NCBI GenBank assembly: GCA_018334055.1
Contig: JAGXSS010000077.1
Coordinates: 1-56,316, forward strand
Source of the DNA: Peptococcaceae bacterium
GTDB taxonomy: Bacteria; Bacillota; UBA994
Direction of reading: 5' to 3'
Length of the DNA stretch: 56,316 nt
The notes beneath the pieces were generated by a model, which was not told the DNA's origin, did no database searches, and saw only the letters and a program-made list of their open reading frames with translations. Positions 17,844 through 55,688 of this stretch are shown one piece after another. The translations under genes were made by a program, and so were the position numbers. Every line of letters begins with the position of its first letter. The stretch's first letter is position 1.

Positions 17844-17872
17844 ATATTACACGAATATTCGTGCCCTGTCTA
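17844..17872 (-). promoter_or_regulatory. glnA promoter with a perfect 14-bp palindrome in the spacer
   Basis: On the minus strand, -35 TAGACA (17867-17872) and -10 TAATAT (17844-17849) are 17 bp apart. The palindrome CACGAATATTCGTG fills 17850-17863, directly beside the -10, where a bound repressor would block polymerase. The gerKA gene runs away in the opposite direction from here. Confidence 0.6.
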
Positions 17873-17977
17873 GGCAAATTCCTTGGCTCATTCCCTGCTG
17901 AGATGATTTCGCCGGTGCGAGCAAGAACGCATGTTGGACCTATAAATGGAGAGCCTACCAATGTAGGGAGTGAGCGA

Positions 17978-19459
17978 GTGGACAACTGGTGGGACCTCCT
18001 CAAGAGCTTTTTTATGGCAGAAGATGCTACACGCAGTACGCATAACGCGATCCCCTCACGCGGTTTTCAAGGCAATCTTGCCTATCTGCGGGAGCGCTTT
18101 AGCAATGCCCATGATTTTAGTGTGAGGGAGTTGCAATTAGGGGGCGACGGGAAAAAAGCGGCCGTAATCTACCTAGAGAGCCTGACTAACCCTGCCAGAA
18201 TCGCCGAAGAAGTACTCATCCCGCTCGGCAGTTTCATCGGCATGGCCGAGAGGCCGCAAGCAAAAGTGCGTCCCTTGTTGGCTAAACAATTCCTTTCATC
18301 CTCCAACCTAGAAGAAACAACGGATTTAAAGCAGGCCGAAGGACTGCTGCTCGACGGCTGGACCATCATCCTGATGGATGGGCTAAACACCATTCTCGCG
18401 GTTGGCACTCAGTCTAACCCCGGACGTGCGGTGACCGCGTCTGAAACAGAAACTTCTATTTTTGGCCCTAAGCAGGCCTTCGTGGAAGCGCATACGGTCA
18501 ACTTGGCCCTGCTGCGGCAAAAACTTAAAACCCCCAAACTCAAATTAGAGGAATTCCGTTTAGGGACCAAGTCCCCCACCGGCGTTATGTTCGTGTATCT
18601 TGAAGGAACTGCGCCGGACACTTTTGTCCGCGGGGTTAGAGAACGTTTAGCGAACATCGAGGTGGAGGTGCTCATCGAGAGCTCCTATCTCGAATCCCTG
18701 CTCGGAATAAGCACACTCTCTCCATTCCCGCAGGCCATTTACACCGAGCGCCCCGACAAGGTCACCGCAAACCTCCTCGAGGGCAGAGTCGCCCTAGTAG
18801 TTGACGGCTCCCCTGATGTCTTGGTGTTACCAACGGCTTTTCCTGACCTGTTTCAAGTTGCTGATGACTACTACCAGCGTACACTCCCCAGTTTGCTCAT
18901 TCGCGTCCTCAGGGTGATCGCATTTTTCCTTGCCACCACCCTGCCCTCGTTGTATGTTGTGCTCATCAGTTTCAATTACGAAGTTCTACCCACCAACCTG
19001 ATCATACCGGTGGCCATTTTCCGCAGCGGCGTGCCCTTCCCCCCGTTCATCGAGCTGTTCGGCATGCTCCTCATCGTCGACATACTGCAGGAAGGAGCCA
19101 CTCGGCTGCCCTCCAAGGTGGGCCAGACAATAGGTGTCGTGGGCGGTTTCGTCCTAGGACAGGCCGTCATTGAAGCCGGGCTGATCAGTCCGCTGTCGCT
19201 AATCACGGCTGCGCTTTCCTTTATCGGTTCCTTTGCCATTCCCGACTACAGGGTAGTTGGCCTGGTACGCATCCTGCGCTATGCGCTATTGCTGGGGGCA
19301 AGCCTACTTTCTGGGGTTGGCGTGGTGGCCGTGTGGCTCGCGGTATTTATCCATATCGCTTCGCTGGAAGTGCTTGGGGTGCCTTACTTGCGCCCGATAG
19401 CTCCCCTTTCTAAAAAAAGCCTGGGTGACTTTATCTTGCATCGAAAGAAGGATGAGTGA
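17978..19459 (+). CDS. gerKA: Spore germinant receptor subunit A
   Basis: GerA-family subunit of the receptor in the spore inner membrane that senses germinants. The protein (493 residues) has a soluble N-terminal domain and a C-terminal membrane part with about five hydrophobic segments from residue 300 on, including the conserved IPVAIFRSGVPFPPF region and a PSKVGQTIGVVGG motif. I chose GTG 17978 because GGGAG lies 7-8 nt upstream; an ATG at 17861 would add 39 residues that overlap the glnA promoter. First gene of gerKA-KB-KC. It shows the organism makes endospores. Confidence 0.93.
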   Translation: MDNWWDLLKSFFMAEDATRSTHNAIPSRGFQGNLAYLRERFSNAHDFSVRELQLGGDGKKAAVIYLESLTNPARIAEEVLIPLGSFIGMAERPQAKVRPLLAKQFLSSSNLEETTDLKQAEGLLLDGWTIILMDGLNTILAVGTQSNPGRAVTASETETSIFGPKQAFVEAHTVNLALLRQKLKTPKLKLEEFRLGTKSPTGVMFVYLEGTAPDTFVRGVRERLANIEVEVLIESSYLESLLGISTLSPFPQAIYTERPDKVTANLLEGRVALVVDGSPDVLVLPTAFPDLFQVADDYYQRTLPSLLIRVLRVIAFFLATTLPSLYVVLISFNYEVLPTNLIIPVAIFRSGVPFPPFIELFGMLLIVDILQEGATRLPSKVGQTIGVVGGFVLGQAVIEAGLISPLSLITAALSFIGSFAIPDYRVVGLVRILRYALLLGASLLSGVGVVAVWLAVFIHIASLEVLGVPYLRPIAPLSKKSLGDFILHRKKDE

Positions 19460-19462
19460 GCC

Positions 19463-20572
19463 ATGCCGAGACAGCCTCGAGTCACGCACTGGCAGTACTT
19501 CACTCTAATTTCTGGCGTTCTCATCGCTAACGGTATAATGTCTATGCCGCGCGCAGTTGCCGCTGATGCCGGACGGAGCGCGTGGCTGGTAATACTCCTT
19601 GTTGGATGCATCGTCGCGGTGCTCACCTGGCTAGCGCACCTTGTCGCCAGCCACTTCCCTACGCGCGATGCGGCGGAATGGCCAAAGACTTTGCTCGGGC
19701 CAATTTTGGGGCGAATCTGGATGATGGCCTACTTACTGCGCGCCATCATCTTCTTATTACTTACGGCCCAACTATACGCCGGGTATTTATCGGTGCGCTT
19801 ATTTCCTAGAACCCCCACCCATGTCTTCGCCCTCTTAGTCTTGGCACTGTCACTACTGGCGGTGCTCGCAAAAGTCCGCGGGTTCGCTCGCTTTTCAGAG
19901 GTAGCCTTCTATATGTCTATCCCTCTTATTCTATTTATCATCATCCCTTTCACCAAGGGAAACACCTTGCACCTCTTGCCCCTTGTGGGGGACACTCCGC
20001 CCTCTGACTTACTGAAGAGCGCCTTAGCAGCCTCCTACAGCTATGCTGGTTTTGATTTCTTGTGGTTCGTTTATCCTCATCTTCGTCGCAAGGCCTCTGC
20101 CGGCACTGTAGCCTTTGGAGCTGTGCTGCTGACCGCAATAGTCTACGCTTTTGTGACTGCCACCACCATCATGTACTTCGGCCTAGAAAAATTAGGCCTC
20201 ATCTTCCTGCCAACGTTAGCGGCGCTTCGCGGCATCGAGATGGTGCTTTTTGAGCGCATCGACAGCCTGATGATGTTTGCGTGGCTTTCAACGGTGGTGG
20301 TAACTGCGGCCGCCCAACTGTACACCGCTACCCGCCTAGTGCAGGGCTTGGCCAATGGGCTTTCGTTTCCTAAAGTTGCCGCAGGACTCAGCGGACTTTT
20401 CTTTATTGTAGCGTATAGCGTAACCGACCTGCCACTATATCAAACCATTGCTATTTCAGATATTTTTGGCATTTTTGACCTGTCTTTCTTTGTCACCAGC
20501 ATTTTTGTGTTCTTAATATTGGCTTTGGTACGCAACCGCAAGGGAGACAAGTGCGATGAACCGGCAGATTAA
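19463..20572 (+). CDS. gerKB: Spore germinant receptor subunit B (permease-like)
   Basis: The 369-residue integral membrane protein of the GerAB family belongs to the amino-acid/polyamine permease superfamily and has about ten hydrophobic segments. It begins with the typical ISGVLIANGIMSMPRAVA region. In the receptor this subunit is thought to bind the germinant. It starts 3 bp after gerKA and overlaps gerKC by 17 bp. Confidence 0.94.
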   Translation: MPRQPRVTHWQYFTLISGVLIANGIMSMPRAVAADAGRSAWLVILLVGCIVAVLTWLAHLVASHFPTRDAAEWPKTLLGPILGRIWMMAYLLRAIIFLLLTAQLYAGYLSVRLFPRTPTHVFALLVLALSLLAVLAKVRGFARFSEVAFYMSIPLILFIIIPFTKGNTLHLLPLVGDTPPSDLLKSALAASYSYAGFDFLWFVYPHLRRKASAGTVAFGAVLLTAIVYAFVTATTIMYFGLEKLGLIFLPTLAALRGIEMVLFERIDSLMMFAWLSTVVVTAAAQLYTATRLVQGLANGLSFPKVAAGLSGLFFIVAYSVTDLPLYQTIAISDIFGIFDLSFFVTSIFVFLILALVRNRKGDKCDEPAD

Positions 20573-21755
20573 ATTGTTCATCTTAGTGGCGCTATCGTTG
20601 TTGCTCACAGGTTGCTGGGATTCAATGCCAGTTGAAGACAGAAACATCGTTTTGGCCGTAGGAGTAGACTATATGCCTGATGCGCCCCACTACCTGATCA
20701 CTTTGGTCGCCCCGATTATCGCAGAACAGCGCACGCAGCCAACGCGAGTGCAAAGTTTCCGGGCCACGGGCCTCGCGGAGGCCTTGGCCATGGCCGGTCA
20801 TGCCGATGGGCAGATCTATTCTTTTGGGAAACTACTAGCGGTGGTCTTCGGCGAAAACGCTGCCCGCCAAGGGGTCTCGACAGCGCTAAACGACCTCTTT
20901 ATGCACCCTAACCTGCGCATCCAAAGCTACGTGACGGTAGCTCTAGGAACCGCCCATCAACTCCTCACCGTGGTCCCACCTGAAGGGCAAAGTGTCGACA
21001 CCTACCTCAAGGATATGTTGGACCGCGCCAAGATGAGGCGCGATGCCCCCCCTATTACCCTAGATCGCTTTACCTCCTCCGTGGTCACCCCCGGCATTGA
21101 TGCGAGCACTCCCCTCCTTGCAGCCATCGGTACCACCGACCCGCGCCCACTTGAGCAAAGGGGGGCGGATGGAGGACGCGGGATAATGTTCGAAGACATC
21201 CAAATAGTCGGTAAAGCGACCTGGCAAGGTGACCGCATGGTCGGCACCATGACCCTAACGGAGCTACAATACCTCTCTATTGCCCAAGGAACCTCGCACG
21301 ATTTATTGATGCAGGTGCTCCTTCCACCCAACACCCCTTTCACTCCCGAAAACAATCGCCTGATCATCCGCTTGGAAAAGACCAGGTCATCGTGGCAGAC
21401 TCAAGTAATTGACGGCAAATTTCATTTCAATCTAAAAACAGAAACAGTGCTTAGCCTCATCAACTACCAAGGGAAAATTGATCTAACCAAGGAGGAGAAC
21501 GCCGAGAAACTCGCCGAGATATTTGCCACGGTCATCAAGCAGGGCATTACGAAATCATTGCAGGAATTATTCTCGTTTGGCAGCGACCCCATTGGCCTAG
21601 GCCAAATGGTGCGGGTTAAGCACCCTTTGGCCTGGGATGCCAAGACTTGGACAGAAGCACTGCAGAAAGCGACCTATAGTGTGAGTGTCAAGATCCAAAT
21701 CAGAAACATTGGTTTGACCATAACCCGTTTTGAGCCCCAAGGCAAAAATCCGTAG
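20556..21755 (+). CDS. gerKC: Spore germinant receptor lipoprotein subunit C
   Basis: This Ger(x)C lipoprotein has 399 residues. The signal peptide ends in the lipobox LLTG-Cys with Cys at residue 19, followed by the family start CWDSMPVEDRNIVLAVGVD. The rest is a soluble multi-domain receptor subunit exposed outside the inner spore membrane. It is the third gene of the operon. The 56 bp to the convergent ABC ATPase gene hold no clear terminator. Confidence 0.94.
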   Translation: MNRQIKLFILVALSLLLTGCWDSMPVEDRNIVLAVGVDYMPDAPHYLITLVAPIIAEQRTQPTRVQSFRATGLAEALAMAGHADGQIYSFGKLLAVVFGENAARQGVSTALNDLFMHPNLRIQSYVTVALGTAHQLLTVVPPEGQSVDTYLKDMLDRAKMRRDAPPITLDRFTSSVVTPGIDASTPLLAAIGTTDPRPLEQRGADGGRGIMFEDIQIVGKATWQGDRMVGTMTLTELQYLSIAQGTSHDLLMQVLLPPNTPFTPENNRLIIRLEKTRSSWQTQVIDGKFHFNLKTETVLSLINYQGKIDLTKEENAEKLAEIFATVIKQGITKSLQELFSFGSDPIGLGQMVRVKHPLAWDAKTWTEALQKATYSVSVKIQIRNIGLTITRFEPQGKNP

Positions 21756-21811: not shown

Positions 21812-22825
21812 CTAATAAACATTAACCGCCGACGGCAGCACCTCTAAGAAGATCTCTTCGCCAACGAAAAAGTCATGCCGGGCTGAAAAGACGTTTAGGG
21901 TGTGACCGCGCTCTATTGTTACCGTGTAGTAGGTGGCCTTGCCGGCATAGGACTTCGCCGCTACTCTGCCTTGGTGCGGTCCTGCCTCGCGCGTCAAGGC
22001 CAACTGATCCCACCTGAACCTGCCTACGGCATTGGCGCTGTCGGGAGCATTGACGGCAAAGATGCCTAGAGCACAGTAGAAGTTCCCTCCTTGCACTCTA
22101 CCGTCTAGGTAATTAGCTTCACCGAGAAAATCAGAGAGTTTCTTAGTGAGGGGCTGTGTGAAAATTGCCTCCGGTGTATCAACCTGCTGCAAGCGGCTAT
22201 CGACGATGACGGCGACTCGCCGCGACATCATGAAGGCCTCTTCTTTGTCGTGAGTGACCAAGATGCAGGTAAACCTCAATCTTTCCTGGAGCGCAGCCAC
22301 AAAGTCACGCATGCTTTGCCGAAGCCCGGTGTCCAAGTTGGAAAATGGTTCATCAAGGAGTAGGACTCTAGGTTCCAAAACACAGGCGCGCGCTAAGGCT
22401 ACGCGCTGTTTTTGCCCCCCTGACAACTCTCCGGGCAGGCTGTGTTGCCGATCTTTAAGATGCACCAAGCCGAGAATGTCGTGCACCTTGCTCTCTAGTG
22501 CCACTCGCGGCACCCCCCCAGCCCGGAGGCCAAAGGCTATGTTTTGCCAGACGGTCAGATGGGGGAAGAGGGCATAATCTTGAAAGACAATAATGGCCTT
22601 ACGGCGCTGAGCTGAAACATGGGTAAAATCGGCATTGTTAAATATCACCTTGCCGGCACTGGGCGCTTCTAGCCCGGCTATAAGGCGCAAAAGCGTGGTC
22701 TTGCCGCTGCCTGAGGGGCCAAGGAGGGCAAACATCTCCCCGTCGTCGATCTCCAAGGACACATCCGCTAAAACCTGTTGCTCCCCGTAAGACTTGTAAA
22801 CATGTTCAAGCCTGATATTTGCCAC
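21812..22825 (-). CDS. ynjD: ABC importer ATPase, YnjD/PotA type
   Basis: The 337-residue nucleotide-binding subunit has Walker A GPSGSGKTT, signature LSGGQKQR, Walker B LLLDEPFSNLD, the switch His in VTHDKEEA and a C-terminal TOBE-like extension (from about residue 240) seen in polyamine, iron and molybdate importers. It is the last gene of a leftward cluster with two permeases and a binding protein. The start is GTG with AGAGAGG upstream. The symbol is used by analogy with the E. coli ynj locus because the whole gene set matches; substrate unknown. Confidence 0.85.
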   Translation of the reverse strand: MANIRLEHVYKSYGEQQVLADVSLEIDDGEMFALLGPSGSGKTTLLRLIAGLEAPSAGKVIFNNADFTHVSAQRRKAIIVFQDYALFPHLTVWQNIAFGLRAGGVPRVALESKVHDILGLVHLKDRQHSLPGELSGGQKQRVALARACVLEPRVLLLDEPFSNLDTGLRQSMRDFVAALQERLRFTCILVTHDKEEAFMMSRRVAVIVDSRLQQVDTPEAIFTQPLTKKLSDFLGEANYLDGRVQGGNFYCALGIFAVNAPDSANAVGRFRWDQLALTREAGPHQGRVAAKSYAGKATYYTVTIERGHTLNVFSARHDFFVGEEIFLEVLPSAVNVY

Positions 22826-22856
22826 GTCGCTACCTCTCTCTTTGTTGGCGCAAGCC

Positions 22857-23660
22857 CTAGGTTTGCAAGAAATAAGCGCCCTTGTAGAATTTCCGCACTA
22901 TACCCTCCATCAACGCAATCGACGCCAAAGTGCTCATGATAAACAACAGACTGTAGACTGCCGCGACCTGGATTTCCCCACTTTGCAAATGTGGCACCAG
23001 CAATAATGGGACAGTCAAGATGCGCCCTCCCCCGATGAAGAAGGTAGTGATGTACTGTGAAAAGGAAACAATAAAACTCATAATCGCCGCCGAAAGCAAC
23101 CCGGGCATAATCATGGGGAGAGTCACGTCGGTTAAGATCATCCGGGGCGACGCCCCGAGCATGGCGGCCTGCTTTTCATATTTTTCCCCCACCAGCTCGA
23201 AGACATTGATGAGTACCCTGGTCGCATAGGGCAAAGTGAAGACGGTGTGCACTACCACCACCCCGGCAATGCTCCCGGCCAAACCCAGATGAATTAGGGT
23301 TAGGTGCATGCCCATGGTGACGGTTATGCCGGGCACCATGAGTGGTAGCAGCACCAATAATTTGACGGCTTGCCGGCCACGAAATTGATACAGGCCCAAG
23401 GCTTTAGCTGCCGGTACGGCCAGTAACAAGGTCAGTGCCGTTGTCAACGCCGCGATGAGGGTGCTGTTAATGAGGGCCTCTGCTGTCCGTCTATCCTGAG
23501 CAAGCACCGAAACCAGGTAGCGCCAACTGAAAACTGTCGGCAGGAGGCTGGGATATCTCCATGCCGCCGACACCGTCAAGACCACCAGAGATAAGACGGG
23601 AGCACTGGTGGCGAACAGAAACGAGTAGAAGATTATGGCTCTCAGGCGAGGAAAACGCAT
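22857..23660 (-). CDS. ABC importer permease 2, YnjC C-terminal half type
   Basis: The 267-residue permease has about six hydrophobic segments and the cytoplasmic EAA-type loop (KYEKQAAMLGASPRMILTDV) that docks the ATPase. AGGAGGTGAG precedes the ATG, which immediately follows the stop of the first permease. In E. coli YnjC both permease halves are fused in one chain; here they are separate adjacent genes. Confidence 0.87.
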   Translation of the reverse strand: MRFPRLRAIIFYSFLFATSAPVLSLVVLTVSAAWRYPSLLPTVFSWRYLVSVLAQDRRTAEALINSTLIAALTTALTLLLAVPAAKALGLYQFRGRQAVKLLVLLPLMVPGITVTMGMHLTLIHLGLAGSIAGVVVVHTVFTLPYATRVLINVFELVGEKYEKQAAMLGASPRMILTDVTLPMIMPGLLSAAIMSFIVSFSQYITTFFIGGGRILTVPLLLVPHLQSGEIQVAAVYSLLFIMSTLASIALMEGIVRKFYKGAYFLQT

Positions 23661-24596
23661 TTAACGCTCACCTCCTTCTGTCTGTCGCTGGATCAGCGCT
23701 AAAATGTGGCCGTAGGCAATGGCAAACCCCAAAGAAATAACAGTTATGAGCACATTGATGACCATGGATGAAGCTCGATAAGTCAAGTCCGGCCTCATAT
23801 AGTAAAAAAACGCTTTTACGGGGAGCGTGTTCCAGGCGGGGGTGCCGATCAAAAATGGTACTTCGAAAGCCCCAAAGGTAAAAGCGAAGGTGATTAAGAA
23901 TACCGACAAAATTGTTGGCATCAGTAAGGGTAGCAATATTTGCGTGCACAACTGGAGCCTACCCGCGCCGAGGTTGTAGGCTACCTCCTTGAAGCGGGCA
24001 CTGATATTTTCTAAGGTGCCGGCCACAATCATGGTGGCGAAGGGCACCTGTTTGTAGAGATAAACCAGCACAATGCCTATACCCAGACGGTCGAACACGA
24101 GCAGGGGGAACTGATTAGGGTGTGTAATACAACCAAGCCAATAGGCCAAACGCGAAGCAACCCCTGTTTGCGAAAATAAGTGAAAAACAAGTACTATTAC
24201 CACCAGATGAGGGATGACAATGGGAACTTGGTACAACAGCCTCTGCCACTTGGGTCGCTGGCCCATACTGAGCATGACAAATGCCACCATGACCCCCAAC
24301 AAGTTAGAGAGCAGTGTGGCTACTAAAGCGATATAAATGGTATAGGAGAGCGATGTCAAAAAATCGCTCTCCAGCAGCACCTCGCGGTAAAACCTTAGGG
24401 TCAAGACATTGGCCGCCGCTCCGGGAACGAAACCCAGACTCTGCAGGACAGCGCTTCCCAGCGCCAGTACAAAGGTCAGGCCCATAAATGTAACTAGGGG
24501 CGCGACCAAAATGTAGGGTCGCCAGGTAGCGTATAGCCTACCGGCGCAGGACGTGTTCTTGCCACAGCTCTTCAATAATGGCGATTTTTCTTGCAT
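23661..24596 (-). CDS. ABC importer permease 1, YnjC N-terminal half type
   Basis: This permease has about six hydrophobic segments beginning RPYILVAPLVTF and an EAA-type loop (RFKEVAYNLGAGRLQLCTQI). The start is uncertain. The frame is open to 24737 inside the binding-protein gene, but only the segment from RPYILV on resembles permeases. I give the ATG at 24596 (311 residues), which overlaps the upstream gene by 59 bp; its Shine-Dalgarno (GGAGGAG) is 14 nt away, which is too far to be convincing. Confidence 0.83.
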   Translation of the reverse strand: MQEKSPLLKSCGKNTSCAGRLYATWRPYILVAPLVTFMGLTFVLALGSAVLQSLGFVPGAAANVLTLRFYREVLLESDFLTSLSYTIYIALVATLLSNLLGVMVAFVMLSMGQRPKWQRLLYQVPIVIPHLVVIVLVFHLFSQTGVASRLAYWLGCITHPNQFPLLVFDRLGIGIVLVYLYKQVPFATMIVAGTLENISARFKEVAYNLGAGRLQLCTQILLPLLMPTILSVFLITFAFTFGAFEVPFLIGTPAWNTLPVKAFFYYMRPDLTYRASSMVINVLITVISLGFAIAYGHILALIQRQTEGGER

Positions 24597-25758
24597 GGAC
24601 TTCAGGTAGTCTCCTCCTGAGAAGTTCATCCACCGGGAGAACCCCTCTGCCGCTATCCACTCCTTGGAGTCTAGTCCTTTCCTCGGCGGTAAGTCTGGCG
24701 AGATCGAGAACCGGCAGGTCGCCCCAATTATTGACATCTAGCTTCTCGGCCTGCATGGCGACACTGATCAACTGGTGGATTAGAACCAAGGCCGCGTCCT
24801 TGGCGGGGGCATTAAAGGGCATAGCCACATAATGGGTGTTCCCAATGTTGCCGCGCTCAAAGAGGAAGGTCTGAGCGGTAGGCGGAAACTCGTTGTTGGC
24901 TATTTTTCGCGCCGCGTACAGGGGGGTGTAGCTCATTGTCCAAAGGAGCTGCCCTTCGGCGAACATCCTACTGAGTGTGGGGGTATCGGCGGGGTAGGTT
25001 CGCCCCTCCTCCCAAAGGTACTTCTCAAGCTCGTTTAAAAAGTCTAACGCCGGCCTGATGACATTGTAAATGGCCTCTTTCTCGGCGGGCGCATTGTTGA
25101 TGGCGTCGAAACCCACTATTTCGTAGATAATGTTTCTCACAAAGGCACTGCCCGTAAAGTCCGGAGGGGCGGCGTAGGTAAATTGACCGGGGTTAGCGCG
25201 GGCGGCCGCAAGCAGGGCCTGGGCACTCGCAGGGAAAACCGGCAGACGAGCGGTGTCAGATACAAAGACCAGTTGCGCTCTGCCTAGCGGTACGGACATA
25301 CCCTCAATCGGCACGCCAAAGTCAAAGTTTGTGTCCGGTGCCTGGGGGTCTATTAGTCGGGTAAAATTTTCTACGCGGCTGGCGAAGGGACCGTAGAGCA
25401 ACCCTTGGGTCTTCGCTGTATAGAAATTCTCGCCGTTTATCCAGATGACGTCGATATCTCCGCGCAGCTTGTTGGCTTGTTTTTCGGTAGTCAACTTGTT
25501 TAAGATTTCATCGATATTCATGGGCACACGGCGCAAGGTTATCCCATGCTCGGCTTGGAGGGCGGGGGCAACCACATTGTCAAACCAACTGTTGACCGCG
25601 GTGCTGCCACCCCAACCGTAAAAAGTCACGGTTTTGCCGCGCGCCGTGCGCAAGGCATCGGCAAAATTGTTCGGGGCGACGGTCGCCGTAGGCCTGGCAC
25701 AAGCGGTGAACAGCACCACCGACAAGACTGCCGCCAAAAATATTATTGGTTTTTTCAT
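24538..25758 (-). CDS. ynjB: ABC importer substrate-binding lipoprotein, YnjB family
   Basis: This 406-residue lipoprotein has signal peptide and lipobox LFTAC (Cys20). The mature part begins with the strand TVTFYGWGGSTAVNSWFD and contains DIDVIWINGENF, both close to E. coli YnjB as I recall it. It is the capture protein of the adjacent ABC importer. GGAGGATGG precedes the ATG. Distant relatives bind thiamine, iron or polyamines, but the substrate of the YnjB branch is not known to me. It follows the CDP-alcohol phosphotransferase gene by 92 bp. Confidence 0.87.
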   Translation of the reverse strand: MKKPIIFLAAVLSVVLFTACARPTATVAPNNFADALRTARGKTVTFYGWGGSTAVNSWFDNVVAPALQAEHGITLRRVPMNIDEILNKLTTEKQANKLRGDIDVIWINGENFYTAKTQGLLYGPFASRVENFTRLIDPQAPDTNFDFGVPIEGMSVPLGRAQLVFVSDTARLPVFPASAQALLAAARANPGQFTYAAPPDFTGSAFVRNIIYEIVGFDAINNAPAEKEAIYNVIRPALDFLNELEKYLWEEGRTYPADTPTLSRMFAEGQLLWTMSYTPLYAARKIANNEFPPTAQTFLFERGNIGNTHYVAMPFNAPAKDAALVLIHQLISVAMQAEKLDVNNWGDLPVLDLARLTAEERTRLQGVDSGRGVLPVDELLRRRLPEVHARKIAIIEELWQEHVLRR

Positions 25759-25850
25759 AGGCCATCCTCCACTTCTTCCTTCACTTCTTCCTTGGGCAGC
25801 GTTTTCCCTGCTGGAGCCTTTGCTAAGTTACAACCCCACTGGTAGGGCGG

Positions 25851-26444
25851 TCAGTTCTTGGTCCGGAGCAGCCTTACCGCCTCGGCAAATCTTTGCAGAG
25901 CCGTAAAGAAAATCAGCGCGGCAAAAACCACTAGGACCAAGGCCCGCCACTCGGCCAGCAGCACGGCAAGGCTGATCATAATAAAGCCCTCCGTCCGCTC
26001 CACCAAGCCAGGCTGGTAGTAAAAAGACTTATTGCCTGTTTTCTCAGCCACGGCTCCCACCGTCAAGAACACGGTCATCGAGAGGATGATGCTCGCAAAA
26101 ACCAATGCTGTGCCTACCCCCAACGAGGGATAGGCTATGGTCAGAGCCAGCAAGACCAAGATTTCGACCAGTCTGTCGAAAACTATGTCCATGACGGTGC
26201 CGATGGCGCTAGAAGATTTTGTCAGACGGGCGATGGTGCCATCAAGAACATCGAAGAGGCCAGAAAACCAAAGCAGGGCAACACCACCGAGATAAAACCC
26301 TCCCCAAACCGCTAGCGCTGCCGCTATGCCGAGGCCCAAGGCAACCAAAGTTGCCCCGATTGCCCCTAGGCCTAGCTTAGTGAGCGTGGCGGCGAGTTGC
26401 TCAAATAGCGGTTGTAAGTGCCGCCTGGCCTTAGTGTCTAACAT
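25851..26444 (-). CDS. ynjF: CDP-alcohol phosphotransferase, YnjF-like
   Basis: This membrane enzyme transfers a phospho-alcohol from a CDP-alcohol. The full family signature DG(x2)AR(x8)G(x3)D(x3)D is present: Asp68, Gly69, Ala72, Arg73, Gly82, Asp86 and Asp90. Several hydrophobic segments cover the 197 residues. GGAGGAGAGG precedes the ATG. It sits between the rhodanese gene and the binding-protein gene. A housekeeping phosphatidylglycerol-phosphate synthase role is possible, but this context matches E. coli ynjF, whose substrate is not known to me. Confidence 0.9.
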   Translation of the reverse strand: MLDTKARRHLQPLFEQLAATLTKLGLGAIGATLVALGLGIAAALAVWGGFYLGGVALLWFSGLFDVLDGTIARLTKSSSAIGTVMDIVFDRLVEILVLLALTIAYPSLGVGTALVFASIILSMTVFLTVGAVAEKTGNKSFYYQPGLVERTEGFIMISLAVLLAEWRALVLVVFAALIFFTALQRFAEAVRLLRTKN

Positions 26445-26464
26445 GGCCTCTCCTCCCTCAGCTA

Positions 26465-27904
26465 CTACCTAATTTCGCCCCTATTGTCAGTCCAAAGCTC
26501 GGTCAACGTACGCACCTGAATTTGCAGTCCGGAAGGAACGTGTCCGGCACTCACTTCAGATGCCACATAGGACCATTCGATCCAGGACCCATCATAGTTA
26601 AAGACGTTTTGGTGCCCGAGCACATCGCGCAAAACCACTAGGGTGTGCGAAGAACGAACACCGGATTGGCAGAACACGATGACATTACGGCCGCGAATGG
26701 TTTCGGCAAAGATCGCGGCCATCTCTTCGCGGGTCTTTAGAGTCCGGTCGGCGGCATTGGCATTGACCCAGTCAATGTGGACCGCGCCTAAAAGCCTGCC
26801 GGTACCAAAGGCGCCACGGGAAGAGGCAGTGGAGCGACCGGCAAACTCGTCGGGACTGCGGGTGTCAATAACCACCCATTCGCGCGGGTTAAGTAGCGCA
26901 CTGACGACCATCTGTATCGATGCGTTGCCACGGGTGGCGTCGAAGTTGGGCGCACGGTAGCCGGTTAGGACGGGCTGCTCGGCCAGGCGCGCAAAACGCC
27001 CCGTGGGGAAGCGTGCGGCCTGCCAGGCATTCAAGCCTCCATCTAGGTACCTGACATCGCGATGTCCGAGCTGCCTGATTTGCCACATAAAGCGTGCAGC
27101 ATCATGCAGGGCATCGGCGGCGTAGACGACGATCATGGACGAGGGCGTGGCCCCTGCACGGGATAGGAGGTCCTCCATAACCTCACGGGAAAAGGCCATG
27201 CCGGAAACGGCGGGGGCAATCGCAGTTGGTGCATTGGTCCCAGAGTAATCCGGACGCCATACGGCAAAAGTACCGTCAATGGGAGAACGGGCTGGGTTTA
27301 GGGGGATTAAGGCCGAGGTAGGGTTCAAAACCCCAATGACCACTACGTCCCGCTCATTGCGCTCCCGCAACATATTGAGCTCGGCGGGGCTGATAAAAGC
27401 GTCTTGGTTAGCATAGGCAGCCAGTTTCTGGCTTTGGGCATTGCCCTCGATGCGTACTCTTCTAATGGCAACCGGCCTAACTACCACTACGGTGCGGGCT
27501 GCTTCATCCCAGCTCACTTCGGCACCAAGATTCTCAGCGACAAAGCGCAGGGGCACGAGGGTGCGCCCGGTGAGGGCAAAGGGGGCTACATCGAGAGTGA
27601 CATTGCGACCGTTGACAGTCGCCACATTGCGCCCGAGGACCAAGGCAATGGTGGTGTCGCCTCTCTGCCCGGTGACGGTTTCGGTCGCGGCGTCCCAACC
27701 TACGGTAGCACCGAAGGATTCGAACAACGCTCTAAAAGGTACGAGCACTCGCCCGGCCCGAATGACCGGCGCGACATCAAGCTGCATGGGTTGACCATCA
27801 ATCAAGATGCGGATTACCGCGGCGGCGTCGAGCGACGGTTGGTAGGCCACGAGGCTGCCGAGCACCAAGGTAAGGGCTAAAACCAGACCGGCTAATTTCT
27901 TCAC
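26465..27904 (-). CDS. ynjE: Exported stalk-rhodanese fusion, YnjE-like sulfurtransferase
   Basis: The 479-residue protein has a signal peptide (about 1-28), then a copper-amine-oxidase N-terminal-type stalk domain (about 30-150: ILIDGQPMQLDVAP, GRTLVPLRFVAENLGA), then two rhodanese domains. The first (about 190-310) has no Cys at the catalytic position and is probably structural. The second carries the active loop CQSGVRS with Cys412. So it is an extracellular or cell-wall sulfurtransferase. E. coli YnjE is also an exported multi-domain rhodanese, but without this stalk; the stalk may hold the enzyme at a Gram-positive surface. GTG start with AAAGGAGAG upstream. Confidence 0.9.
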   Translation of the reverse strand: MKKLAGLVLALTLVLGSLVAYQPSLDAAAVIRILIDGQPMQLDVAPVIRAGRVLVPFRALFESFGATVGWDAATETVTGQRGDTTIALVLGRNVATVNGRNVTLDVAPFALTGRTLVPLRFVAENLGAEVSWDEAARTVVVVRPVAIRRVRIEGNAQSQKLAAYANQDAFISPAELNMLRERNERDVVVIGVLNPTSALIPLNPARSPIDGTFAVWRPDYSGTNAPTAIAPAVSGMAFSREVMEDLLSRAGATPSSMIVVYAADALHDAARFMWQIRQLGHRDVRYLDGGLNAWQAARFPTGRFARLAEQPVLTGYRAPNFDATRGNASIQMVVSALLNPREWVVIDTRSPDEFAGRSTASSRGAFGTGRLLGAVHIDWVNANAADRTLKTREEMAAIFAETIRGRNVIVFCQSGVRSSHTLVVLRDVLGHQNVFNYDGSWIEWSYVASEVSAGHVPSGLQIQVRTLTELWTDNRGEIR

Positions 27905-27951
27905 TCAGATCTCTCCTTTATTCTTTCGCTTTCTCGTTTGGCTGACCAAAG

Positions 27952-28656
27952 CTACTTGCCGATGTTGATGCCTTGCTTTTTAGCTATGTACTTAGGGATG
28001 AGCGACACCCCAAAGAGAATAAAACCGGCGGCCGCAAACTGCAACAAGAGGTTAAGGCTTACGCCATGGGTGACTATTTCTCCGGCCATGTAGGCGTAGA
28101 TGAAGGCCCCGGGCGCCATGGTCAGCAAGGAAACCACCGCGAAAGTAGATAGTTTCATCGGCGTGACCCCATAGGCGTAATTTTGGATATTGTAGGGGAA
28201 CACCGGCACCAGCCTAGTCAAGATAAGAAAGCTTGTTCCGTTCTCCTTCACTCCATTTTCAATCCGCTTGAAGATGGGGTTCTGCCCAAACTTAGCGACA
28301 ATCGTGTCGCGCGCGATGTACTTGCCGATTAGGAAGGCGACCGATGCCCCCACCGTGGCTGAGACCAAAGCCAAAGCACCCCCGACCACCGAACCAAAGG
28401 TGATGCCCGCGACAATAGTTATGGCCGAGGCGGGCAACATAAAGACTGCCGCTACGATGTACAAAAGCACATAGGCGAGGTAGCCAACCACGCCAAGGCC
28501 TTGAATCCAGGCTCTGAGGCCTTCTACGTCTTGCAACACATCAAGTAGACCCAGCTGCCCCGCCGCGAAGACTACCACCACTAGGACCAACACTGCCACT
28601 ACTATTGGTAACAAACCGCCCTTGGCCTTTTTCTTATCAGCGCTGATAACGGACAC
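27952..28656 (-). CDS. TVP38/TMEM64 family membrane protein, YdjX/YdjZ-like
   Basis: This 234-residue protein of the DedA/VTT superfamily has about six hydrophobic segments, with the conserved AITIVAGITFG and VPVFPYNIQNYAYG regions typical of TVP38 proteins (lipid or solute carriers of uncertain role). It is the first gene of the leftward cluster, 47 bp before the rhodanese gene. E. coli has two such genes (ydjX, ydjZ) directly upstream of ynjABCDEF, which supports the locus match. The GTG start abuts its AAGAGG, so the true start could be a few codons downstream. Confidence 0.88.
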   Translation of the reverse strand: MSVISADKKKAKGGLLPIVVAVLVLVVVVFAAGQLGLLDVLQDVEGLRAWIQGLGVVGYLAYVLLYIVAAVFMLPASAITIVAGITFGSVVGGALALVSATVGASVAFLIGKYIARDTIVAKFGQNPIFKRIENGVKENGTSFLILTRLVPVFPYNIQNYAYGVTPMKLSTFAVVSLLTMAPGAFIYAYMAGEIVTHGVSLNLLLQFAAAGFILFGVSLIPKYIAKKQGINIGK

Positions 28657-28691
28657 CCTCTTTCTATATTACTCTAGGCTCGATCTGTCGC

Positions 28692-28717
28692 AAACAAAAA
28701 GACACGTCCCTTTTGTT
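28692..28717. repeat. Copy 1 of a 26-bp dispersed element (GACACGTCCC core)
   Basis: This 26-bp sequence recurs exactly at 54381-54406 in the same orientation. AACAAAA/TTTTGTT arms flank the core GACACGTCCC; on the minus strand the RNA can form a roughly 10-bp stem using G-U pairs. Here it lies between the TVP38 gene start (28656) and the stop of the CCG-domain gene (28722). Confidence 0.75.
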
Positions 28718-28721
28718 GGAG

Positions 28722-29489
28722 CTAGGTGATTTGGCGCTTTATCACCACCTTGGACTTGTAACGGTTGATCCAGGCCTTGACGGGGCTGGCGAGCACATTC
28801 TCGGGCGGTTGCGAAGCCTTAGTCACCACCGGCCCCCATAGGAGGTCAAGGAGATGCCAAGCCTTACCACCCCCCATGAGCATGGAGGAACGACAAGCAG
28901 CACAGTAAACCACTATTTGTTCGGTAGGCATGTCCTTGATGCGACGCTCCATAACTCGCTTCGCTAAATCGGGGTTCGCGGGCACAATCATGCCCCCGAA
29001 ACCGCAGCAACGGGTGCGTTCTCGCGTGCAATCAGGTTCAACCGTTTTGTAGCCGAGTTCCTGCATCACCCAGCGCACGCCATCATGGATGGCCGTTTCT
29101 TGACGGACGGGGCAGGAATCATGAATGGAAATGACGGCATCGCTCCCGGCGGCCTTGCCCCGGAGCTCTTTGGGCAGACCGATTTTTGGCATTATTTCCC
29201 ACAAACTAACTGTCTTAAATTCTTTAGATTCGCGGAGCATGTTGAGGCAGTTTTGGCAAGCTACGATCATCTCATCGATTTCGCAGTCCTTGATGTCTTG
29301 GACTAGGCTGCCAAACCGCTGCTTGAGTAAATCCACCTGTCCCAAAGCCTTGGTGGGCTTGCCGCAGCACTTTTGTATCACCGACAATTCTGGATATGTA
29401 TTCTTTAGATACTGCACAGTCTTAGATATGTTTTCTGGGCTGTAAGAAGGCAAAGAGCAACCAGGCATGAAACCCCTTCGTAGAGCCAT
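28722..29489 (-). CDS. CCG-domain (HdrB/GlpC-like) Fe-S oxidoreductase subunit
   Basis: This 255-residue protein has two cysteine-rich CCG domains: QKCCGKPTKALG with Cys in the preceding PGCSL, and RCCGFGGM with Cys in the preceding HDSCP. In heterodisulfide-reductase-like proteins such domains bind an unusual Fe-S cluster or a quinone/thiol site. I chose ATG 29489, one base after the stop of the upstream flavoenzyme (TAA T ATG). The frame is open to 29765, but that part is the opposite-frame shadow of the flavoenzyme. The two genes look like one electron-transfer enzyme split in two. Confidence 0.88.
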   Translation of the reverse strand: MALRRGFMPGCSLPSYSPENISKTVQYLKNTYPELSVIQKCCGKPTKALGQVDLLKQRFGSLVQDIKDCEIDEMIVACQNCLNMLRESKEFKTVSLWEIMPKIGLPKELRGKAAGSDAVISIHDSCPVRQETAIHDGVRWVMQELGYKTVEPDCTRERTRCCGFGGMIVPANPDLAKRVMERRIKDMPTEQIVVYCAACRSSMLMGGGKAWHLLDLLWGPVVTKASQPPENVLASPVKAWINRYKSKVVIKRQIT

Positions 29490-29490
29490 A

Positions 29491-31278
29491 TTACTTACGC
29501 CCCTTTCGCTTAATCGTGAACATCTTGGAGAAGGACAGCTTTTGGTGGATGTCAATGGCCCCATGCCCCTTGATGGGGGATTTACCATGGTTGGCCTTGA
29601 CCATATCTTTGCGCATGCCGGCAAAAATGTCGGCCATCTTGTACTCTTCCGGACAGACCAAGGTGCATTGGTTGCACATATTGCAGGAATAGGGGACGAT
29701 AGGCTCGATATCCCCCTTGCCGAGGAAGGTGCCAAAGAGTTCCCCCGGGCAGCGAGTGAAATCATTGAGCATGAGGCACTCGATCATACACTTTTTGCAC
29801 TCACACTGCAGGCAGCGCTGGGCTTCGGCCAGGGCGTCTTCATCGTCAAAACCGAGGTCACACTCGGCGAAGGTCTTCGTGCGTTCGTCGGCACTAAGCA
29901 CTTGCGTATGGACACGCTTGATGTTTTCCGTCCCCGCCTCAAGCGGCACTTTGAACTTGCTTTCATAGGTATACTCGCTTTTGAAGTCCCTGCCGGCGGT
30001 CAGATCCTGCCCCTTGAGATACCTATCAACCGAGAGCGCCGCCTTACGCCCGAGGGCCATGGCTTGAATGACGATGGTGCTGCCTGCGGCATCGCCCGCC
30101 ACAAAGACGCCGGGGATGGCGGTGGCTAGAGTATCGCCATCAACCACGTAACGCCCGCCGTTGGTCTGGGCCATTGCTCCTCCTGAAATGTCCTCCACCC
30201 GCTGGCCGGTAGCAAAGATAACGGTGTCACAATAAATCTCCGTGTCTTGGTCGCCCAGGCGTGGATTAAACTGCCCGTTTTCGTCTTTGACGGAGCGACA
30301 GTCTTTGAGCCTGAGCGCGCTGACGCGCCCACCCTGGCTCACAGTCTCTTCGAGGCACCAACCGCAGCGAAAAACCACACCCTCTTCGCGCGCGCCTTCC
30401 TGTTCATGCGGGCTGGCCGGCAGTTCATTCTCTTTTTCCAAAGTTACGAGTTGCACCTCTTCGGCACCGGCCCTCAGTGCCGAACGAGCACAGTCGATGG
30501 CCACATCGCCACCGCCGATGACGGCGACCCTTTTTCCCAGCACCTTGCTCTTGCTCGTCATGGCCAATTCGCGCAAGAAGTCAACCGCATTGGTGATGCC
30601 ATCGCATACTGCCCCATTGACATTGGGCATCAGTCCCTTGTGCGCACCATGGGCTAGCACCACCGCATCGTAGCTCAAACTGAGGTCAACTAGCGAAACC
30701 TGTTTGCCCACCTCGACGCCCATCTTATATTCAACGCCCAGCTTGGTGAGGTAGGTATATTCAAAATCAAGGACGGCGTCGGGCAGGCGATAATTGGGGA
30801 TGCCAACCCGCAGCATGCCACCCACTACGGGCAGTTTTTCATAAATGGTCACGGCGTGGCCGGCCTTGCGCAAATCGACGGCGGCTTGTGCCCCGGCCGG
30901 GCCGGAACCAACTATAGCCACTTTTTTGCCGGTGGGCTGGCCGACGGCAAGGTCCCAAAGCTCCTCTTTGTCGGCCTTGTCGGCGGCATATCGTTTCAGG
31001 GCGGCAACGGCAATGGGCTGACCAAATTCAGATTCTCGCCGACAAACGGCTTCACAGGGATGAGCACAAACCCGGCCTAAAGTGCCAGGCAAAAAAACCC
31101 TCTCTCTAATCTTACGCACCGCATCGTCGAGTCTGCCCTCGCCCACTAAGCGAACATACCCCATGGCATCCGTATGCATGGGACATTCCGCACTGCAGAA
31201 AGGCGGTTGCAAACCTTGACACCCGGTGGCGACCTCGGTACTGATTTTTAATACTTGCTCCGTGTATTGAACTGCCAC
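29491..31278 (-). CDS. GltD-like FAD/NAD(P) oxidoreductase with C-terminal ferredoxin domain
   Basis: The 595-residue protein has an N-terminal Cys-rich Fe-S domain (CSAECPMHTD, then CAHPCEAVCRR), an FAD-binding Rossmann site (VGSGPAGAQAA), a second NAD(P) site (VIGGGDVAIDCA) and a C-terminal module with Cys clusters CLQCECKKCMIEC and CNMCNQCTLVC. It is not the glutamate synthase small subunit in context: no gltA/gltB-like gene is near. The C-terminal ferredoxin part resembles the start of HdrD/GlpC-type chains, and the following gene supplies the CCG part. A role in NAD(P)H-linked electron transfer to a disulfide or quinone acceptor is inference. Confidence 0.9.
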   Translation of the reverse strand: MAVQYTEQVLKISTEVATGCQGLQPPFCSAECPMHTDAMGYVRLVGEGRLDDAVRKIRERVFLPGTLGRVCAHPCEAVCRRESEFGQPIAVAALKRYAADKADKEELWDLAVGQPTGKKVAIVGSGPAGAQAAVDLRKAGHAVTIYEKLPVVGGMLRVGIPNYRLPDAVLDFEYTYLTKLGVEYKMGVEVGKQVSLVDLSLSYDAVVLAHGAHKGLMPNVNGAVCDGITNAVDFLRELAMTSKSKVLGKRVAVIGGGDVAIDCARSALRAGAEEVQLVTLEKENELPASPHEQEGAREEGVVFRCGWCLEETVSQGGRVSALRLKDCRSVKDENGQFNPRLGDQDTEIYCDTVIFATGQRVEDISGGAMAQTNGGRYVVDGDTLATAIPGVFVAGDAAGSTIVIQAMALGRKAALSVDRYLKGQDLTAGRDFKSEYTYESKFKVPLEAGTENIKRVHTQVLSADERTKTFAECDLGFDDEDALAEAQRCLQCECKKCMIECLMLNDFTRCPGELFGTFLGKGDIEPIVPYSCNMCNQCTLVCPEEYKMADIFAGMRKDMVKANHGKSPIKGHGAIDIHQKLSFSKMFTIKRKGRK

Positions 31279-55197: not shown

Positions 55198-55583
55198 TTA
55201 GCGGCCTAATAGGATGGTGATTTTTTTGCCCTCCGGCTCGCTCTCCCCGTTTTTACTAGACCAAAGGAGCCCAACAATAAAACCCCGCGCTGTCGCCGGT
55301 TGTTCGAAGGCTAATTCAGTTTCAGAATAGTGGTAGGTTATGTTGAAATGCGAGATTTCGCGCAGCCACAGCTCCGCCGGAACCTTATTGTTGGCGTCAA
55401 CAACTCGCAGTATCCCGCCCCCATAATGATTTGTTCTGTGCCGGAGTCGTACCCGGACCGGGCTGGTAACGAATTGCTCAGCCTGTTAGTGGCGAAAGCA
55501 TCTTGCGTGTCGCGACCCTCCGTCCCTGCGGGTCATTACCTGTCGAGGTCCTGCCCCGACTTTTCCTTAACGCTCACCACCAT
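55198..55583 (-). pseudogene. Frameshifted gene remnant of unknown family
   Basis: Three adjoining minus-strand frames each read like protein: MVVSVKEKSGQDLDR from ATG 55583, then TEGRDTQDAFATNRLSNSLP and SGYDSGTEQIIMGAG, then VPAELWLREISHFNITYHYS and ARGFIVGLLWSS, ending KKITILLGR at the TAA 55198-55200. They need two frame changes, near 55530 (in-frame TAA TGA) and near 55410. I do not recognise the family. Either a decayed gene or sequencing error. The rest of 55014-55688 holds hairpins and no intact gene. Confidence 0.5.
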
Positions 55584-55688
55584 GGCTCTTGACCACACTA
55601 GCTTAAGGTAAATTGAAACTGCCGAGCATAGGAAAAGATGGTGCAGTCCTTCTTCGTCAAGTAGAAAAGCGCGCCAAGAAAAGAATCG

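Follow-up and report, generated by a model that had tools for sequence, protein, structure and literature searches.

The ydjXYZ-ynjABCD, ynjE and ynjF genes of E. coli K-12 represent the closest known locus to the one described here. Both E. coli units are activated by FNR (PMC3688515), and YnjBCD, corresponding to COG4134-4136, was still listed as ‘uncharacterized’ in a 2022 paper (PMC9207381), which agrees with the first-pass annotation of our sequence, where the function of this locus had been considered unsettled. YnjE is annotated as a molybdopterin synthase sulfurtransferase. In our search of the literature we found no paper joining these parts or giving them a joint function. The gene families and the existence of the E. 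coli locus are already known, but ydjX-ynjF has no settled function even in so well studied a genome; the evidence for a conserved system presented here gives it a first concrete and testable context. The second system of relevance is that of ArsS, the radical SAM enzyme responsible for arsenic adenosylation in the synthesis of oxo-arsenosugars (PMC12159101).

The sequence analysed, hereafter the window, is a stretch of 56,316 nucleotides from a spore-forming Peptococcaceae bacterium (contig JAGXSS010000077.1), whose genes were placed in families using Pfam and NCBIfam profiles. It contains an operon of nine genes on the minus strand, at positions 21812-31278 (Table 1). The first-pass annotation had described seven leftward genes at 21812-28656; all seven lie on the minus strand at these coordinates and belong to the families it named. 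The boundary was drawn too early, however, because the genes encoding the CCG and FAD/Fe-S proteins, which had been overlooked, extend the operon upstream to 31278, at intervals of 65 and 1 bp. Three members of the same family (L056, L059 and L062) have these nine genes in the identical order. A cyclophilin gene lies upstream of the operon. Note that the listed open reading frame of permease 1, running to 24737, is too long and overlaps the gene for the binding protein.

Table 1. Genes of the window operon, given from the first to the last gene.
Gene product	Position	Strand	Remarks
FAD/Fe-S pyridine-nucleotide oxidoreductase (first operon gene)	29491-31278	-	N-terminal half of NF045663-like protein
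CCG (HdrB-like cysteine-rich) protein, 255 aa	28722-29489	-	C-terminal half of NF045663-like protein
TVP38/VTT membrane protein, YdjX-like	27952-28656	-	Pfam
Exported rhodanese (signal peptide, PF07833 domain, two rhodanese domains)	26465-27904	-	catalytic loop CQSGVR
CDP-alcohol phosphotransferase, YnjF-like	25851-26444	-	full catalytic motif
YnjB-family substrate-binding lipoprotein	24538-25758	-	NF008633
ABC permease 1	23661 to 24596 or 24629	-	Pfam
ABC permease 2	22857-23660	-	Pfam
ABC ATPase with TOBE domain	21812-22825	-	Pfam

The TVP38 and the rhodanese of the operon are the sole VTT/TVP38 protein and the sole rhodanese-domain protein of the genome, and the nearest solved relatives of the CDP-alcohol enzyme are PI-phosphate synthases. 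A role of TVP38 as a thiol relay is unlikely, since the window protein has zero cysteines. In the rhodanese, the domains are preceded by a PF07833 (copper amine oxidase N-terminal) domain, a fusion also seen in the family relatives. Elsewhere in the window, a convergent three-gene gerA-type spore germination operon adjoins the locus (17861-21755, plus strand), and a fragment of a group II intron (RF01999, 50.5 bits) is located at 55538-55652 on the minus strand.

What the window and the E. coli locus have in common is the YnjB family, TVP38, an exported rhodanese, a CDP-alcohol enzyme, an ABC permease and an ATPase. The E. coli locus also carries YdjY, YnjA and a second TVP38, none of which was found in the window locus, and the fused YnjC is replaced in the window by two separate permeases, as originally proposed. 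Moreover, the window ATPase has a TOBE domain, unlike that of E. coli, and while YnjE is a three-domain protein with the loop CGTGWR, the window rhodanese is a two-domain protein whose loop differs (Table 1). The window adds the FAD/Fe-S and CCG genes, and its CDP-alcohol gene is on the same strand as the rest of the operon, whereas in E. coli ynjF points in the opposite direction. Thus, with YdjY, YnjA, the second TVP38 and the fused permease absent here, the window locus is a relative and not a complete copy: the co-occurrence of the YnjB importer, TVP38, rhodanese and CDP-alcohol enzyme that had been pointed out is real, but the term ‘complete’ has to be abandoned, also because the rhodanese is not of the YnjE type.

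The binding protein matched the YnjB model NF008633 with 443.8 bits (cut-off 203) across positions 4-395 of 397, confirming the original assignment. Together with the two permeases and the ATPase, it forms, by sequence and gene order, an ABC importer of a separate family. Among the best 25 models listed for each protein, all the window components scored below the curated cut-offs of the NCBIfam equivalogs for polyamine, iron, sulfate, phosphonate and thiamine importers. The structural model of YnjB (pLDDT 92) has the fold of a type II binding protein. The fold comparison was uninformative about the ligand because binders of sugars, phosphonates, iron and polyamines are all close. Compared with these type II importers, the YnjB system has a common fold and transporter superfamily, but it forms a distinct family, and its components scored below the cut-offs of the models for these substrates, sugars included. 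Most of the invariant YnjB residues are aromatic, Gly, Asn, Asp or Glu, a composition that would speak for an organic ligand more than for a small anion, such as an inorganic sulfur anion.

Is this gene mix a local accident? A scan of GTDB genomes revealed at least 583 places encoding a YnjB relative, and the best 80 of these were mostly from Bacillota, plus Spirochaetota and Thermodesulfobacteriota. In a phylum sample of 398 genomes, YnjB scored over the cut-off in 29. Twenty of 25 ynjB genomes have a VTT gene no more than 10 kb away from ynjB, where the numbers of family members in each genome would lead one to expect 0.50; for a CDP-alcohol gene, 17 of 25 were observed and 0.49 expected; kinship between genomes is only partly accounted for in these and the other association statistics. 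Judging from gene neighbourhoods, the mix is neither accidental nor confined to this genome, being found again elsewhere in Bacillota, in Spirochaetota and in E. coli. This bears out the proposal of one system conserved across phyla; the situation that would have spoken against it, components of an ordinary polyamine or iron importer with partners in a single genome, is not what we observed.

The partners were counted in 72 full loci, defined as having at least 7 kb on either side of ynjB: TVP38 was present in 54, the CDP-alcohol enzyme in 42, rhodanese in 28, a FAD oxidoreductase in 22 and a CCG protein in 17. Thus the importer occurs with no rhodanese nearby in 44 of the 72, and nine loci lack TVP38, the CDP enzyme, rhodanese and the glycosyltransferase alike, which counts against the explanation that we favour below. 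In the Thermodesulfobacteriota loci examined the importer was found without its usual partners, and the Bacilli loci have no rhodanese and a lipoamide-dehydrogenase-like reductase. All the cluster rhodaneses whose start lies inside the fetched DNA open with a signal peptide or a lipobox. Some ynjB loci also carry a flippase-like protein. In a Planococcus locus (L088:7416-9308), a lipoamide-dehydrogenase-like FAD reductase fused to DUF1499 adjoins ynjB.

Many of the loci without the CDP-alcohol enzyme carry an alternative to it, a module composed of a TIGR04283 glycosyltransferase, an APH-family kinase, a TIGR04282 protein and a nucleoside hydrolase. The CDP enzyme and the glycosyltransferase were never found together in the 72 full loci (42 with the former, 17 with the latter, 13 with neither; p = 9e-9). 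Moreover, the nucleoside hydrolase, of the inosine-uridine type, was present in 16 of the 17 glycosyltransferase loci and in none of the 42 CDP loci. By gene content, therefore, the CDP-alcohol enzyme and the glycosyltransferase/kinase/nucleoside-hydrolase module replace each other. Both modules occur together just once, in the partial locus L039, which carries a second ynjB gene. A quick tree of YnjB requires at least seven changes of module label, so that the swap is not a single old split; an independent-pairs test of the swap, which has low power, gave p values of 0.125-0.5. In genome G086, the ynjB locus (L035) keeps just the APH kinase of the module, and the glycosyltransferase pair is located on another contig (L193), without a radical SAM gene.

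The glycosyltransferase also connects these loci with ArsS. TIGR04283 proteins over the cut-off were detected in 25 of the 398 genomes of the phylum, 19 of which have no ynjB. The islands of these 19 contain TVP38 in 14 cases, and hold exported rhodanese, TIGR04282, flippase-like, C-GCAxxG-C-C, YdjY and AhpD-like proteins as well. A radical SAM gene, either ArsS or one of two other types, was present in 16 of these 19 glycosyltransferase islands lacking ynjB, but all 21 glycosyltransferase-bearing ynjB loci lack one (Fisher p = 3e-8, calculated using 0/20). Read most simply, this pattern would mean that the importer supplies the product otherwise made by the radical SAM enzyme, and thus seems to replace a synthesis step. 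ArsS (TIGR04167, cut-off 300 bits) scored 387-443 bits in the four proteins checked from ynjB-less islands. The synthesis of arsenosugars in the ynjB genomes themselves was rejected, because none of the 15 ynjB genomes searched, including that of the window, had ArsS above the cut-off. The best TIGR04283 match in the window genome (E 3.1e-15) was also below the cut-off of 182 bits, which proteins of other ynjB loci pass. Note that a radical SAM gene is nevertheless encoded at one ynjB locus, L075, in which both finishing modules are missing; this again counts against our preferred explanation. The islands with ArsS or the other two radical SAM types are L174-L192, and these two types look like uncharacterised ArsS alternatives.

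The ynjB genomes were also associated with selenium. SelD was over the cut-off in 27 of 29 ynjB genomes, compared to 234 of 369 others (p = 8e-4, kinship ignored), the exceptions being G169 and G268. Of 47 named ynjB genomes, 34 have SelB; among the 17 Bacillales-type ynjB genomes the number is 9, compared to 84 of 399 in the reference class (p = 0.005); the relation between SelB and the presence of rhodanese at ynjB loci was not significant (p = 0.09). In a Defluviitaleaceae genome that has SelB, the cluster rhodanese contains an in-frame TGA (L064:2067, plus strand; VFUQGGVR) at the position occupied by the catalytic cysteine in 26 of 31 relatives. Split YedE halves are found in eight full loci, usually together with TusA, and eight loci encode a LysR regulator of the selenium type. 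Strict selenium dependence was nevertheless rejected, since several genomes without SelB or SelD retain the core; with 13 named ynjB genomes lacking SelB and two lacking SelD, selenium is a frequent partner of the system and not its definition. The several ynjB genomes devoid of SelB or SelD, and of a rhodanese at the locus, also speak against the explanation preferred below. A GrdB/PrdB-like gene near ynjB in L126 (8867-9652), L127, L128 and L133, all from Bacilli with SelB, has a conserved in-frame TGA within a UxxC motif (NPGUYICHQ), and probably encodes an undescribed Bacilli selenoprotein. Finally, the FAD/Fe-S and CCG genes of the window jointly cover NF045663, the model named ‘dicluster-binding protein near Sec’. 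A fused relative at ynjB locus L036 passes its cut-off (569 bits, cut-off 530), while the window version, split in two, scores 243 and 200 bits, both under it.

How these parts work together we can propose just tentatively. Our favoured explanation, possible but held at clearly less than even confidence, is that the operon represents a variant, supplied by import, of a broader set of envelope islands centred on TVP38 and an exported rhodanese, in which a sugar- or nucleoside-like compound with sulfur, selenium or arsenic would be imported, reduced and linked to lipid. The nucleoside hydrolase, kinase and glycosyltransferase modules and the parts common to the ArsS islands suggest that the substrate is sugar- or nucleoside-like and may carry S, Se or As. 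Also in favour of this explanation are the co-occurrence of the genes far beyond expectation, the mutual exclusion of the finishing modules, the selenocysteine codons and other selenium associations, and the proximity of the CDP enzyme to PI-phosphate synthases. We infer each chemical step from a gene set and from swaps documented by sequence and gene order. YnjBCD would import a small organic compound of this class, built around an S, Se or As centre, such as other bacteria produce for themselves using a radical SAM enzyme. The cytosolic FAD/Fe-S/CCG reductase would use NAD(P)H to reduce this centre, and the core would be attached in phospho-alcohol form to a lipid, which in this operon would be the work of the YnjF-type enzyme acting on CDP-diacylglycerol. 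TVP38 could move the lipid product or the carrier to the other side of the membrane, and outside the cell sulfane sulfur or selenium would be dealt with by the exported rhodanese.

Another possibility, which we consider rather doubtful, is that the locus remodels phospholipids or the envelope, with the import of a plain phospho-alcohol, polyol or cyclitol, from which the CDP enzyme or the glycosyltransferase would make a head group, TVP38 acting as a scramblase and the rhodanese and reductase in thiol repair. TVP38 and the CDP enzyme are indeed the most frequent partners, the latter being closest to PI-phosphate synthases, and the flippase-like protein of some loci and the Bacilli loci devoid of rhodanese are also consistent with this. 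However, it accounts neither for the recurrence of the rhodanese and the presence of CCG/FAD or lipoamide-dehydrogenase-like reductases nor for the selenocysteine variants and the likeness to the ArsS islands. The exported rhodanese, TusA, split YedE, the selenium-type LysR, the selenocysteine at the rhodanese active site and the association with SelD and SelB would rather suit the simple scavenging of sulfur or selenium, in which YnjB takes an oxyanion or a small organic thiol, the rhodanese frees sulfane sulfur and the reductase feeds selenocysteine or Fe-S synthesis. This is near the original idea, and we regard it as unlikely: the core persists where SelB and rhodanese are lacking, no role is left for the CDP enzyme, the glycosyltransferase, the kinase or the nucleoside hydrolase, and the invariant YnjB residues look organic-ligand-like.

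The E. coli ynj importer genes presumably carry a thiamine or related-vitamin annotation in KEGG, the thiamine-binding structure 2qry is among the fold matches of YnjB, and the best model for the APH kinase, far below its threshold, is thiamine kinase. An importer of thiamine or a related vitamin is nonetheless very improbable, since the window proteins stay below the ThiP and ThiQ cut-offs, the recurrent neighbours include no thiamine synthesis genes and a search of seven loci and of the window gave no TPP riboswitch at the gathering threshold, although not every thiamine importer has one. Least credible of all, and hardly tenable, is the sulfuration of the molybdenum cofactor, implied by the name of E. 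coli YnjE and compatible with the FNR activation: every cluster rhodanese with a readable start has a signal peptide or a lipobox there, and no Moco genes recur among the neighbours.

Overall, the initial interpretation is partly supported. The exported rhodanese gains support from the relative with selenocysteine at the catalytic position, but the import of a ‘sulfur compound’ is weakened by the loci without rhodanese, the YnjB residues and the exchangeable modules; it had overlooked both redox genes, the exchange of modules and the connections with selenium and ArsS. New here are the limits of the operon, the mutual exclusion of the two finishing modules, that of importer and radical SAM genes, and the selenocysteine variants. 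The swappable parts, and those common to ArsS islands and selenoprotein users, narrow the substrate options. A more specific proposal, speculative and distinctly unlikely at present, is that YnjBCD, that of E. coli included, imports an organoarsenic, -selenium or -sulfur nucleoside or sugar of the kind made by ArsS-type radical SAM enzymes, and that bacteria without the synthesis step use the product, detoxify it or incorporate it into lipid. If true, the ydjX-ynjF locus would be the salvage counterpart of arsenosugar or arsenolipid synthesis. As regards the ArsS islands (TIGR04167, TIGR04169, TIGR04282, TIGR04283), they have TVP38 and the exported rhodanese in common with the window, and TIGR04282 and TIGR04283 in common with its ynjB relatives; the window, in contrast, has an importer and no ArsS, and a CDP-alcohol enzyme where the islands use glycosyltransferases.
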